A stretch of DNA of 64,000 nt from Caldicellulosiruptor obsidiansis OB47 (lineage in GTDB: Bacteria > Bacillota > Thermoanaerobacteria > Caldicellulosiruptorales > Caldicellulosiruptoraceae): contig NC_014392.1 in the NCBI RefSeq assembly GCF_000145215.1, positions 799,501 through 863,500 on the forward strand, read 5' to 3'. Below are positions 29,603 through 36,643 of the stretch, in pieces. The notes below the pieces were generated by a model. That model had not been told where the DNA came from and ran no database searches. It saw only the letters and a list, made by a program, of their open reading frames with translations. The stretch's first letter is position 1. Each line of letters opens with the position of its first letter. The position numbers and the translations under genes are program-made.

Positions 29603-30826
29603 TCAAAAAGTAATTTCAATAAGTTCATTTGTTTTATCGAGAACAAAGGTTGTTGTCTTGTTGCTGAAGCTGATTTCATAATCTCCCATATATCCTGATA
29701 CTTTTACACTACCTTGTTCATCGGTCATTAGATACTGCTGTTCAGTCCACCATTCACCTTTTATAAGCTTGTAAAGCTCGTAGTAGATGGGTTTTATTCT
29801 ACCATCTTTGGTTATAAAACCAGCAGGTGCGTTGAGCCACTCTCCATCTACAAAATTCCACCATGTGATAGCCTCAACCTTTGGATGTGCAAAAAGTGTT
29901 TTGTAATGCAACATAGCCTCCATGGCCTGTCGCTCTTCACCTTCAGGTGTACTTGGCCATTCTTCAACTTTATAGTCATTTAAGTCTTCAATTTCTGGTG
30001 GCATAAGGTTGCCTGAGATAATAGTGGTTTCTGTAAAGTGAATAGGTAGGTTAAAACGAGAAAATCTTTCTAATATCTCCTGAGTTTTTTCAACTCCCCA
30101 ATATCCTTGGTGCATATGAGATTGAATTCCTATTGCATCAATTCTAACTCCTGCTTCAAGAAGTCCTTCAATTAAAATTTCATATGCTACAGAGGTGTTA
30201 AAATCGTTTATGAGAAATATTCCACGTGGATTTGCTTCCCTTGCTACAGCAAAAACCTCTCTAACAAGACGTATTCGGCCAAGTTCCTTACATATTCTTG
30301 TAATACCATTGTCATACTTATTAAATATGGGCATAATCACAACTTCATTGATCACATCCCAAATATCAATCAAACCTGCATACTCGCTTACTTCTCGCCG
30401 AATTCGCTCGAGCTGAGCAGCTAATATCTTTTGATTGTTCATCTCAAGCAGCCACGGAGCTGTGAGAGTGTGCCAGCAAAGCGGGTGACCTTTTACTGTA
30501 CATCCTTTGGATATAAGCCATTTAGCTGTATTTTTAAGTCTGAGAGTATCAGGTTTACCTTTAACTGGTTCAAATCTTGCCCAATAAAATGGCAGAGTAG
30601 CAAAGTTAAAAAGATCCAAAAACTTTTCGAAAATTATTTCGGATTTTTCTTTTTCTTTGCCTTGGAGTTCATTGTTGGCAAAAGGTACTACTGAAAATTC
30701 GGCACAGCCAAACAAGAATTTATGTTTTGTCTGTCTTACCACCACCTCTGTATTTTTCAAAGGCGTGCCATCTGACCTTTTAATTTTCAATGTGACTGTA
30801 CTTTTGCGATGTTCATAATTATTCAT
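29603..30826 (-). CDS. Intracellular GH10 endo-1,4-beta-xylanase
   Basis: 407 residues, GH10 (beta/alpha)8 barrel that hydrolyses xylan and xylo-oligosaccharides with retention. The acid/base Glu161 is in WDVINEV and the nucleophile Glu266 in HFTETT; GHPLCWHT and the late ITWWNFVDGEW are further GH10 marks. There is no signal peptide, binding module or surface anchor, so the enzyme should act in the cytoplasm on imported oligosaccharides. The N-terminus (residues 8-32) forms an extra beta-type segment before the barrel. It is the last gene of a three-gene - strand operon with a deacetylase and an acetylesterase, which suggests complete handling of acetylated xylo-oligosaccharides. Confidence 0.95.
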   Translation of the reverse strand: MNNYEHRKSTVTLKIKRSDGTPLKNTEVVVRQTKHKFLFGCAEFSVVPFANNELQGKEKEKSEIIFEKFLDLFNFATLPFYWARFEPVKGKPDTLRLKNTAKWLISKGCTVKGHPLCWHTLTAPWLLEMNNQKILAAQLERIRREVSEYAGLIDIWDVINEVVIMPIFNKYDNGITRICKELGRIRLVREVFAVAREANPRGIFLINDFNTSVAYEILIEGLLEAGVRIDAIGIQSHMHQGYWGVEKTQEILERFSRFNLPIHFTETTIISGNLMPPEIEDLNDYKVEEWPSTPEGEERQAMEAMLHYKTLFAHPKVEAITWWNFVDGEWLNAPAGFITKDGRIKPIYYELYKLIKGEWWTEQQYLMTDEQGSVKVSGYMGDYEISFSNKTTTFVLDKTNELIEITF

Positions 30827-30901
30827 GAGTATTTTCCTCCTTTATTTTTTATTGGCATTAAATTACAAAAAATAGTTTGCATTACAAACAATACAGGATT
30901 A

Positions 30902-31702
30902 TTATTTCAGTTTTATAATTTTACCACTTTTAATTTCTACAGGTTTATTGTTAACGCTTATCCACACTGAAATAGCAGATGGGTTATAGACAAAATCGCC
31001 ATTTACTGAAAATTGTAAACTTCGTAGTGCTTTGAGATATCTTACTATTTCGATGTTAGTCGCATACCAAATATCGTCTTTTCCCGCCATCAATTTGCAA
31101 AAATTTTCTATTAAATGCCAATTATTTTTTCTTTCAAATTCGAAACTATGTCCCCACACATACATTAACTTTAGTTTTCCTTTATATTCATAATCTAAAA
31201 ATTTACGTCCAAGTTCCAATAAATTGTCATCATGATGACAAGTTGGAGCCCAGGTTAAAAAGTTTGACGGAATACGAAAATCATGGTGAGATTCTACAGT
31301 CCTTGCATATTCAATCCCGAGACTTGGCAAAATATTCACAATTTCTTCATTATATACTCCATAAGGATAAGACATACCTTTAACCGGGTAACCAACTAAT
31401 GTCTCTAAATTTTTTCTGTCTTCTAAAATTTCTTCAACCACAGCCTCAATTGGAATACAATCCATGAAAGGATGGGTTTTAGTGTGAACAGCAACTTCAT
31501 GGCCTTCATATAGCTTTGCAACTTCATCCGGTGAAATAAAAGGTTTTTTACCAAGATTTCCTGAATTCAAATGAAAAGTGCCTTTTATTCCATATTCATT
31601 AAAAATTTCAACAAGCCTTCTATCGAATATTTGTCCGTCATCATAACTCATAGTCAGTGCTTTTGTTTTGCCAAAAGGAAATAAATCAAACTTTATATCC
31701 AT
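30902..31702 (-). CDS. Polysaccharide deacetylase family protein (CE4/NodB-like)
   Basis: 266 residues, no signal peptide. The NodB motifs are recognisable but variant: SYDDGQ (Asp21-Asp22, consensus TFDDGP), HTKTHPFMD with the metal pair His73 and His77, and SYPYGVYNE in place of the RxPxG motif. A late CHHDD and VWGHSFE segment may supply the last histidine. Placed between an acetylesterase and a xylanase, it probably removes acetyl groups from imported xylo-oligosaccharides, but N-deacetylase activity on another sugar is also possible. The C-terminal 50 residues form a short extra beta-type domain. Confidence 0.85.
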   Translation of the reverse strand: MDIKFDLFPFGKTKALTMSYDDGQIFDRRLVEIFNEYGIKGTFHLNSGNLGKKPFISPDEVAKLYEGHEVAVHTKTHPFMDCIPIEAVVEEILEDRKNLETLVGYPVKGMSYPYGVYNEEIVNILPSLGIEYARTVESHHDFRIPSNFLTWAPTCHHDDNLLELGRKFLDYEYKGKLKLMYVWGHSFEFERKNNWHLIENFCKLMAGKDDIWYATNIEIVRYLKALRSLQFSVNGDFVYNPSAISVWISVNNKPVEIKSGKIIKLK

Positions 31703-31726
31703 TTATTCTCACCCCTGAAATTTTTG

Positions 31727-33613
31727 CTATATTTCTTCTTCTGTTGTAAACGGAGAGGCTGGCAAGCCTTCTTTATTGTACAGATTTGCTCCTTCTGGAT
31801 TGTCAGCCCATGCATATCGAACATAAGCAGGATTTGAGATACTTTCGTTCCATACTATAACTTTGTTATCTTCTATGACAGCTTTAGCCCAGGTAAATTT
31901 TTTGTCACTTCCAGCAATTGCAAAATGTTTAAGTTCGCCACCTCCTTTTGCAATAAGACCACTGCCAACTTCTGAAAATTCAATAATTACCTTATTACCT
32001 TCAATCTTTGCAGACTTATAAAGTGGACCAGAAGCAACAAGATTTTCTTCGCCATATGCAATTTTTCGGGCAAGTAGGGCAAGCCTTTCTCCCACATCTT
32101 TTTTGTTAGAGGGATGCAGGTCATTCCATTCTCCTAAGTCAATGGTAACAGCCATGCCTGTATTTGGAACGGCGAGTGTCTTTCGCTGCTGTTCTCTGAG
32201 TTCAGCCCACTTACTCTCTGATGGTTGGGACTTTGCCTCCATAAAGTTTGCCAATTGTACGTACAGGAAAGGGAAGTCACCCTGTCCCCACTTTTGCCTC
32301 CAATCGGATATTAACGCACAGAACTTCTTATGATATCCTTTAGGGTTATCAGTGTTTGATTCACCCTGATACCATATAACACCTTTAATACTAAATTTTA
32401 AAAGCGGTGCAATCATGCCATTGAACAATCCTGCAGGTTTGTACTCGAAGAAAGTCATAGATGGTAGAGGCTTTTCAGCTACTGCACCGACTCTGTATTT
32501 CCACTCGCCTTCTAGGCTGATTTGGTAATCTTCAGTGAAAAGTTTGTAAGGCTTGCCTTTGACAAACTCTCCGTTACCATCGTTACTTATAACTCTTATG
32601 GCTATTACATTTTCACCTGGTTTAAGTAGGTGCGCAGGGACCTCGTATTTTCTTGGAGGATAGCGATAAGAAGTTGAACCTACAAGAGTACCGTTAATAT
32701 AAGTGTGATCACTGTCAACTATTGTACCCATATAAAGCTTTGCGGGTTTGCCGACCATAGAAGCAGGTACAGTTACTTTTTTCCTAAACCATACCACTCC
32801 TTTCAAAGAGTCTAACCCCATTTCTTTCCAAGAAGCTGGGAGTTTAACAGTTTGCCAGTCCGAGTCATCGTAGTTAGGATCAAACCATGCAGGCTCACCT
32901 TTTTTCATACCTTTATCCTCTTTGTTTAGTTTTTCATACCAGGCATTTATCTCGGCTTCTTCCTTTTTCTTTATGCTTTCTATATAGCCGTCAACCTTGA
33001 GCTGTTCAAGTATTTTCAAATTTTCAGGAAATTGTTGTAAGGCATCTTCGCTAAGCCATGCTTCTATCGGAGTTCCACCAACGCATGCTTTAATCAAGCC
33101 TATGGGCACATGGTACTTTTCAAATAATGCCTTGGCAAAAAAGTATCCCACAGCCGAAAACCGAAGAATGGTATCTTTAGTAACTGGTTCCCAGCTACCT
33201 TCTTCCAAATCTTCTTGTGGTCCTTTGAAGTCATACCTGTCAGGCACAGTGAACTGTCTTATGAAAGGATTGTCGCAATTAGCTATCTCCTCTTCATAAA
33301 TATCTTTTACTCTTTCCATGGGCAAAACCATATTCGATTGACCAGAACAAACCCACACATCTCCTATTAGTATGTTGTTTATAGTGATGCTTTTTTGAAA
33401 TGTTTCTATTACCATAAAATAAGGTCCGCCTGCTTGCAGCTCAGGTAAAGTCACTTCCCACTTGCCGTCAGTGTTGGCAACAGTACTGTATGACTTGCCC
33501 AAAAAGTGTACTGTAACTTTTTCTTCTGGTAAAGCCCAGCCCCATATTTTTATCTTTTGGTCTCTTTGCAGTACCATGCCATCACTTATCAACCGAGCCA
33601 ATCTAAGTGCCAT
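31727..33613 (-). CDS. Sialate O-acetylesterase-family esterase (acetylxylan-type)
   Basis: 628 residues, SGNH/SASA family. The nucleophile Ser93 is in CSGQSNM, the block IWYQGESNT carries the Gly/Asn oxyanion residues, and the catalytic His is in DLHPSNK. Between the first and second blocks (about residues 245-365) lies a jelly-roll insertion like a glycoside hydrolase 2 sugar-binding domain (FRKKVTVPASMVGKPAKLYM, INGTLVGSTSYRYPP). There is no signal peptide, so it is cytoplasmic. ATG 33613 is chosen for the GAGGGG seven bases upstream. In xylan loci such enzymes de-acetylate xylo-oligosaccharides; the true substrate is inferred from the neighbouring GH10. Confidence 0.9.
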   Translation of the reverse strand: MALRLARLISDGMVLQRDQKIKIWGWALPEEKVTVHFLGKSYSTVANTDGKWEVTLPELQAGGPYFMVIETFQKSITINNILIGDVWVCSGQSNMVLPMERVKDIYEEEIANCDNPFIRQFTVPDRYDFKGPQEDLEEGSWEPVTKDTILRFSAVGYFFAKALFEKYHVPIGLIKACVGGTPIEAWLSEDALQQFPENLKILEQLKVDGYIESIKKKEEAEINAWYEKLNKEDKGMKKGEPAWFDPNYDDSDWQTVKLPASWKEMGLDSLKGVVWFRKKVTVPASMVGKPAKLYMGTIVDSDHTYINGTLVGSTSYRYPPRKYEVPAHLLKPGENVIAIRVISNDGNGEFVKGKPYKLFTEDYQISLEGEWKYRVGAVAEKPLPSMTFFEYKPAGLFNGMIAPLLKFSIKGVIWYQGESNTDNPKGYHKKFCALISDWRQKWGQGDFPFLYVQLANFMEAKSQPSESKWAELREQQRKTLAVPNTGMAVTIDLGEWNDLHPSNKKDVGERLALLARKIAYGEENLVASGPLYKSAKIEGNKVIIEFSEVGSGLIAKGGGELKHFAIAGSDKKFTWAKAVIEDNKVIVWNESISNPAYVRYAWADNPEGANLYNKEGLPASPFTTEEEI

Positions 33614-33698
33614 TAGCAATCCCCTCTTTGGTATATGTATTTTTTAAAAAACATCGAAGGTTTATTGAAAAGCTTATATACAAGAGTGAGGTTCAATA

Positions 33699-33734: not shown

Positions 33735-34075
33735 AAGATCTTTTTAATAAGTAAAATTGTTTCTTATCATTAAAAGGAAATCGATTTCAAGCTTTATTAA
33801 AAACAACAAATACTTTGTAGCTGTTGTTACTCTTTATTTTAACATAACTTCTGAATTATATCTATCCGAAAATAATTGGAAATTAAAGTTAACAATCTTT
33901 TGTCATACACACGAAAATAGTTTAATCCTTGTATTCTCTCAAGTACTCTTTTAATGCTAAAAATTTTTTGCTTGGTATTGGTACAGAGTTTCAGTGGTTA
34001 AATAAAAAATGGTTTATTTTTTGCAAAAAATTGTTAGAAATTTGTTTTTGGTAAGGAGGACCAGTTGAAACTTTT

Positions 34076-34108
34076 TTGACATAATTTTTACCTTTGCAGG
34101 AATATAAT
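34076..34108 (+). promoter_or_regulatory. spoIIG-type promoter with a long spacer
   Basis: Perfect TTGACA (34076-34081) and perfect TATAAT (34103-34108) are separated by 21 bases. Normal sigma-A spacing is 17. The Bacillus subtilis spoIIG promoter is known for consensus-like hexamers 22 bp apart that work only with Spo0A-P. The same architecture before the same gene is unlikely to be chance. A clean Spo0A box (TGTCGAA) is not visible; a partial TTTGACA match overlaps the -35. Confidence 0.7.
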
Positions 34109-34153
34109 TATTACTTAGAAATAACTCTTTTGAGGACAAATAGTGGCGAGAAG

Positions 34154-34987
34154 ATGATTATTTACGCAGATGTATATATATTGGAAAATTTAGTTATAAA
34201 TTATTTTATTCTTCTTGTGACATCATATTTACTCAAAACAAATGTTAATAGTTTTAAGATTTTGCTCATAAGTATGCTTGGGGCTTTTTATTCGCTGTTT
34301 CAATTTTATCAGCCTCTGCAATTTTTGTACTCTCCTGTTGGGAAAATAATTGTTTCAATTTTTCTTGTATATTTTACCTTTTTGCCAAAAAACTTTTTTG
34401 GCTTTATCAGACAACTTCTCAGCTTTTACCTTGTAACAATTATGTTTGGTGGAATGGGATTTTTCGTTTATTATATTTCAAGAAATAGTATTGAGTACTC
34501 TGTGCAGCTAAAACTAAAAAACGTGCTACTTGCACTTGGCATTTCGCTAATTGTGTTCAAGCTGTCGTATGAGCTTGTAATTAAAAAGGTCTACAAAGAT
34601 TCACTCATAAGGTATATAAGATTCAAGATAAATCAGTCAGAATACAGCTGTGTGGGATATGTAGATACAGGCAATAACTTAAAAGAACCTTTCTCTGGCA
34701 AACCTGTTGTAATTGTTGAAAAAAAGCTTCTTGAGATGGGTGAAGACGCAAAAGATATCTGTTCAAAGGATCTTGAAAAGCTTCAGGAACTTTTGGGGAA
34801 CAGAATTGTTTTGATACCTTACAATTCAATTGGGCAGGAACATGGAGTTTTGGTGGGAGTTATACCCGATGAGTTTTATGTGTCAGAGAACAAAAACACA
34901 TGGATAAAAAAAGATGTGGCAATTGCCTTGTATGACAAAAAGATTTCAAACAGGTACTCAGCACTGCTCGGCCCTGATTTAATCTGA
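34154..34987 (+). CDS. spoIIGA: Pro-sigma-E processing protease SpoIIGA
   Basis: About 277 residues. The N-terminal half has five membrane helices (opening [20 protein letters not shown]). The C-terminal half is an aspartic-protease domain with [18 protein letters not shown], whose Asp is the catalytic residue, and a late LLGPDLI end. It cleaves the pro-sequence of sigma-E at the mother-cell septal membrane. ATG 34154 is chosen over in-frame codons from 34094 because those overlap the promoter -10. sigE follows 25 bases later, the usual pairing. Confidence 0.92.
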
Positions 34988-35012: not shown

Positions 35013-35801
35013 ATGAAACTTGAGTCTAAGATTCTGCAATATGTATTGAAAATCTTAGAAAAACTTGGTTTCAAACTTTCTCAAAACCAAATAATGGAAA
35101 TTTTCTATATTGGTGGATGTGACACACTTCCGCCGCCACTTACGCCTGACGAAGAAGCCCAGATTTTATACAGGATTCATTACCAAGGAGAAGAAGGATT
35201 AAAAAAGCTGCTAATAGAAAGAAATTTGAGGCTGGTTGTCTACATTGCGAGAAGATTTGAAAATACAAAGGTTAACCTTGAAGACCTTGTTTCAATAGGC
35301 ACAATAGGTTTGATTAAAGCAATAAATACATACAATCCAAATAAGAATATAAAACTTGCTACTTACGCATCTAAATGTATAGAAAATGAGATTTTGATGT
35401 TTTTAAGGCGAAATTCTAACAAAAAGCTTGAACTGTCGATAGACGAGCCACTAAATGTTGACTGGGACGGCAATGAGCTTTTGCTCTCTGATGTTCTGGG
35501 GACTGATACAGAGGAAATCTACAATAGAATTGAGAGTAATGTAGAAAAAGAAGCGCTTTTGCAGGCAATTCAAAAGCTTCCGTCAAGGGAGAAAAAGATT
35601 GTTGAACTAAGATTTGGATTTGGAGATGAGGGTGAGAAGACTCAAAAAGAGGTTGCAGATATGCTGGGAATATCCCAAAGCTATATCTCACGCTTAGAAA
35701 AAAGATTATTACAAGACTCAAAAAAGAGCTGGCAAAGATTATATAATATGAAAATCTATTTCAGAATAATTGCCTTCCCCAAGGTTAATAATAAACAATA
35801 G
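35013..35801 (+). CDS. sigE: Sporulation sigma factor sigma-E (pro-protein), variant C-terminus
   Basis: Sigma-70 family mother-cell factor made as an inactive precursor. The amphipathic pro-region (residues about 1-30) leads to [17 protein letters not shown], the canonical start of mature sigma-E. Region 2 has [26 protein letters not shown] (in two parts), and region 4.2 the [23 protein letters not shown] helix-turn-helix. The ATG 35013 follows AAAGGAGGAG. After RLLQD the frame continues through an A6 run into an atypical 24-residue tail (SWQRLYNMK and onward) to 262 residues, whereas relatives end with a short Lys/Glu-rich helix. Reading -1 from the A6 run gives that helix and a 244-residue protein (see 35720-35746). 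Confidence 0.92.
35720..35746 (+). other. In-phase A AAA AAG slippery run and -1 frame end of sigE
   Basis: Bases 35720-35726 are A AAA AAG in the X XXY YYZ phase of sigE (codons TCA AAA AAG), the same heptamer used by E. coli dnaX. A -1 shift continues GAG CTG GCA AAG ATT ATA and stops at TAA 35744-35746, giving an end KKELAKII. That lines up with the KKEF/I-NKM-type ends of known sigma-E proteins. No strong downstream stem-loop is seen, so loss of one A from an ancestral A7 run is an equally good reading. Confidence 0.65.
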
Positions 35802-36613: not shown

Positions 36614-36643
36614 TTGACAATTTATGCATTCAAAATTTATAAT
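36614..36643 (+). promoter_or_regulatory. Promoter of the acyl-CoA ligase gene
   Basis: TTGACA (36614-36619) and TATAAT (36638-36643), both perfect, are 18 bases apart. Transcription should start near 36650, just before the leader hairpin. Confidence 0.82.

Follow-up and report, generated by a model that had tools for sequence, protein, structure and literature searches.

The spoIIG promoter of Bacillus subtilis, with its 22-bp spacer, is a standard model for response-regulator activation at a badly spaced promoter: its consensus-like hexamers lie too far apart, and a Spo0A box is found at the -35. The B. subtilis spoIIE promoter, which also has a wide spacer, is of the same class, being used by sigma-A and activated by Spo0A. 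In Clostridioides difficile, the spoIIGA promoter has been mapped by RNA-seq and has the form GTGACA/TATAAT (PMC3789822). PMC3485338 describes low-affinity binding of Spo0A to the spoIIGA promoter region, as well as Spo0A contacts to G2, C4 and position 5 of the TGTCGAA box. The genus Caldicellulosiruptor was listed by Galperin and colleagues among Spo0A-containing non-spore-formers that are missing several sporulation genes (PMC3533761), and its order is described as asporogenous (PMC10434631), which matches the description of a non-sporulating genus in an initial annotation of the DNA studied here.

We analyzed a window of 64,000 nucleotides from the Caldicellulosiruptor obsidiansis OB47 genome, in which perfect TTGACA and TATAAT hexamers are separated by 21 bases at 34076–34108, upstream of spoIIGA-sigE-sigG (Table 1). 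The initial annotation had reported this arrangement before spoIIGA, and both parts were confirmed, with the downstream gene belonging to PF03419 and its ATG at 34154 agreeing with the start in relatives. The locus shares with B. subtilis spoIIG the gene, the consensus-like hexamers at too wide a spacing and a candidate Spo0A box at the -35, but C. obsidiansis has 21 bp and TATAAT, and the prevailing form in Bacillus and its near relatives is 22 bp with TATACT. It shares with C. difficile the gene and the form of the hexamers, and sigE expression in that organism is Spo0A-dependent, though the first base of the -35 is G there and T here. With B. subtilis spoIIE it would share the promoter class, whereas the gene is a different one and the spoIIE region of the Caldicellulosiruptor family carries its box, TTTTGTCG, in the forward orientation. 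This near-consensus 0A box forms an invariant TTTTGTCG..AAAAA upstream of spoIIE in 12/12 genomes that have the gene (locus G000:C1:267697). These 12 include genome G011, where spoIIE is broken.

The whole genome contains two TTGACA-N21-TATAAT sites and one match to a control pattern, so the single site at spoIIGA proves little when taken alone; within the window, TTGACA-N15-25-TATAAT at any such spacer has six matches versus 0.3 expected. The second of the two genomic sites (C1:779856) precedes a gene for a predicted secreted protein; it was considered as a further regulon member and rejected, as relatives have no TATAAT there. A leader peptide read from an SD-like AAGGAGG and a TTG at 34054–34068 was likewise rejected, as congeners do not conserve it. 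The Shine-Dalgarno sequence of spoIIGA (34131–34154) looks poor in the window genome and in relatives. Adjoining the promoter upstream, the minus strand of 29603–33619 holds xylanase-like and deacetylase-like genes (both identified by eye) and a SASA-domain esterase gene; G011 and G006 are without this stretch, and homology in G011 restarts at 34074, beside the promoter. Downstream of the operon, a perfect TTGACA-N18-TATAAT (36614–36643) precedes an acyl-CoA synthetase-like gene. It is present in G006 too, where the scar of an operon deletion (G006:C1:629000-640000) shows an ftsZ-like 3′ end (by eye), then a short sigG remnant, then the retained acyl-CoA synthetase gene with its promoter.

Table 1. 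Features of the spoIIGA promoter and operon in the window
Feature	Position	Strand	Remarks
-35-like hexamer TTGACA	34076..34081	+	GACA invariant in family and nearly so across 76 aligned promoters of the phylum
21-bp spacer	34082..34102	+	12/12 family genomes, no indel
T-tract in spacer	34085–34089	+	at offsets +9 to +11, where T is conserved across the phylum
-10 hexamer TATAAT	34103..34108	+	invariant in all 12 family genomes
TATTACTTAGA block directly 3′ of -10	34109..34119	+	presumed start-site region; conserved in genus
TTGTTAGAAATTTG, weak candidate distal Spo0A site	34031..34044	+	some congeners have TTGTTGAAAATTTG
spoIIGA, pro-sigma-E processing protease, 277 aa	34154..34987	+	PF03419 E=2.9e-66
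sigE, frameshifted, 262 aa vs 244 aa in relatives	35013..35801	+	
A6 run, sigE frame shift point	35698..35703	+	A7 in G009
sigG, 255 aa	35836..36603	+	

To compare the site within the family, oriented upstream regions of the 11 genus genomes that bear the operon and of the sister genus (G012) were aligned, and the alignment is free of gaps from the -35 to the -10. TATAAT and the 21-bp spacer are each present in 12/12 of these genomes, a count that is not fully independent because two of them (G003 and G007) are nearly identical at the promoter. The -35 hexamer is TTGACA in nine genomes, CTGACA in two further members of the genus and GTGACA in G012. Within the genus, invariant columns make up 83% of the -35, 100% of the -10 and 75% of the 12 columns that follow it, compared with 43% of the spacer and 18–22% of the flanks. 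The expectation that the odd geometry would be conserved before the same gene was therefore borne out to the base, with neither an indel nor a drift towards 17 bp in close relatives. The spoIIGA gene itself is intact in 10/12 genus genomes and in G012; of the remaining two, G011 has a broken copy and G006 has none. A chance occurrence of the two hexamers at spoIIGA could appeal to the two genomic matches against one for the control pattern, but it is contradicted by conservation in both the family and the phylum, and we regard it as vanishingly unlikely.

At the scale of the phylum, spoIIGA upstream regions from 123 further Bacillota genomes were scanned, with the hexamers scored at spacers of 13–26 bp. 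The best spacer was 21 bp in 63 of the 123 regions versus 8.5 expected from dinucleotide shuffles (z=24), and in the same regions a 17-bp spacer showed no enrichment and fell below expectation. The controls (the reverse strand, the region from -400 to -200 and shuffled sequences) were flat, without a peak. Across 76 aligned 21-bp promoters, the hexamer bases G, A, C and A each reach 96–100% conservation, which is partly built in because the scan selects -35-like sequence; the second base is T in 80%. Outside this bias are the first base, which is nearly free (T in 41%), and the unscored columns, of which C at -6 (0.93), A at -5 (0.78) and T at +9 to +11 (0.72–0.88) are also conserved phylum-wide.

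We additionally fetched 80 loci from named genomes via SigE alignment, with SpoIIGA of Bacillaceae located by position. A 21-bp spacer was found in Paenibacillus and relatives, Brevibacillus, Kroppenstedtia, Thermincola, Desulfosporosinus sp. PR and some Syntrophomonadaceae, and also in Oceanobacillus oncorhynchi, Evansella, Aeribacillus and Lederbergia, while 22 bp was found in Bacillus safensis, B. altitudinis, Neobacillus, Fredinandcohnia and Ectobacillus; some of the 80 loci had other best spacers, mostly low-scoring. The usual Bacillota spacing at spoIIGA is thus 21 bp, and 22 bp occurs mainly in Bacillus and its near relatives. Judged by the distribution of spacers among the named loci, the 22-bp spacer seems to have arisen secondarily in part of the Bacillaceae. 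The likeness to the Bacillus promoter drawn in the initial annotation holds for the promoter class, but 21 bp is a spacing in its own right and not a near miss of 22 bp. Our search of openly available literature found no account of spoIIGA spacer length across the phylum, which does not exclude that one exists.

The conserved part of the -35 coincides with a match to a Spo0A box on the opposite strand. On that strand GACA reads TGTC, the first four letters of the Spo0A box TGTCGAA, and TTTGACA at 34075–34081 matches the reverse box TTCGACA at six of seven positions (TGTCAAA on the minus strand), such that the minus strand of the -35 reads as the reverse Spo0A box TGTCAAAA. Within TGTC, Spo0A contacts the G and the C (PMC3485338), and their counterparts in GACA are the C and G that are invariant. 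Since GACA is invariant and complementary to TGTC and the first base is free, the ‘-35’ probably serves mainly as a Spo0A box rather than as an ordinary -35. A perfect TGTCGAA was looked for near the promoter and not found. In the promoters elsewhere in the phylum, the CA at -6/-5 (93% and 78%) precedes the corresponding letters of the first box by 10 bp, and this 10-bp offset suggests that it probably marks a second, tandem 0A half-site. GACA is invariant in the family, but the CA at -6/-5 is absent in the genus, and C. obsidiansis thus differs from B. subtilis spoIIG in missing the upstream CA of the tandem site. For this reason, the mode of Spo0A binding at the C. obsidiansis site is uncertain. 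The sister genus G012 has TTTTTTGTCGATAAAAAAA ∼31 bp upstream of its own -35, in place of the weak distal candidate listed in Table 1. Spo0A itself is present in 13/13 family genomes, all with an essentially identical recognition region (PTRVERAIRHAIE).

We consider it very probable that the promoter of spoIIGA-sigE-sigG belongs to the spoIIG class, in which sigma-A would transcribe with activation by Spo0A~P. The features of this class seen in the sequence are spoIIGA-sigE downstream, the 21-bp separation, the box match overlapping the -35 and the presence in the genome of Spo0A with a conserved DNA-binding domain, and the spoIIG-type assignment made in the initial annotation gains support from the 21-bp spacing in 12/12 family genomes, the 21-bp enrichment in the phylum and the GACA-centred pattern. 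In the mechanism that we infer, TATAAT would be used by sigma-A RNA polymerase, with a putative start site just 3′ of it, while TTGACA at 21 bp would be too distant to act as a normal -35 and would double as the reverse Spo0A box. Spo0A~P bound at TTGACA would contact sigma-A and permit open-complex formation, and because Spo0A~P would be needed for this step, the operon is proposed to be silent until Spo0A~P accumulates.

Two perfect consensus hexamers, together with the missing upstream CA in the genus, would also be expected of an ordinary sigma-A promoter that is weak through its spacing and independent of Spo0A. Such a promoter is improbable, since there is no shift towards 17 bp in the family or the phylum, and since the C and G of GACA do not vary whereas the hexamer’s first base does, which is not the pattern of a plain -35. 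The mapped C. difficile promoter also has the same form, and sigE expression there is Spo0A-dependent. We also considered a sigma-H promoter with GCAGGAATA (34097–34105) as its -35, a sequence that fits the sigma-H -35 consensus. This was rejected as highly improbable, since its AGGA is not kept in G004, G008, G011 or G012, GAAT is absent at the right distance, and the invariant element is instead TATAAT.

The further suggestion of the initial annotation, that Spo0A control of sigma-E is still maintained, holds only in part. It fits most of the genus: the Spo0A recognition region is kept, and dN/dS across the genus is 0.06–0.13 for spoIIGA and 0.03–0.10 for residues 1–228 of sigE, showing that both genes are under purifying selection. 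The data support the retention, under purifying selection, of Spo0A and most early sporulation genes. For C. obsidiansis it cannot be taken at face value, because a frameshift at the 3′ end of sigE exchanges the final ∼14 residues of region 4.2 for about 32 different ones, and the Pfam region 4 match stops at profile position 45 of 50. A working sigma-E as the final product is therefore doubtful in this genome, and the switch may lead to a damaged sigma-E. The A7-to-A6 change could be a real mutation or a sequencing error. When 53.8 kb of coding DNA was aligned to G009, all other frame-changing indels formed close compensating pairs or lay near an ORF end, which leaves sigE with the only isolated internal one, and 178 of 181 A/T runs of at least six bases agree between the window and G009.

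The frameshift raises the possibility that sporulation has been lost in the C. obsidiansis strain and that the promoter persists as a fossil only because this loss is recent, a reading that is compatible with spoIIG-class identity. In accordance with it, the promoter of G011 is still perfect even though spoIIGA, sigE, sigK, spoIVA and spoIIE are damaged; in G006, which keeps Spo0A, spoIIGA and sigE are gone along with almost the whole of sigG, and spoIIR, spoIVA and spoIIE are missing; and the order is called asporogenous (PMC10434631). In contrast, the dN/dS values of 0.03–0.13 for the two genes across the genus, the open spoIIR, spoIVA and spoIIE in the C. obsidiansis genome, and the size of the sigE change, one base in an A run that may be a sequencing error, all speak against it. 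We regard a fossil promoter as a serious possibility, though one that we rather doubt.

The comparison indicates that the wide-spacer geometry goes back deep in the history of this operon in Bacillota, with 21 bp as the norm, and that its conservation is centred on a Spo0A box, not on a -35. The genus also presents a small natural series of sporulation loss, with the genes intact in most species, sigE frameshifted in C. obsidiansis, several genes broken in G011 and the operon deleted in G006. Tentatively, and at a little below even confidence, we propose that GACA-N21-TATAAT is ancestral, with the 22 bp of Bacillus derived, and that a genus described as asporogenous keeps the Spo0A-sigma-E switch under purifying selection in most of its species. 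If this is true, most Caldicellulosiruptor species would sporulate under conditions not yet found, or would put sigma-E to other use.
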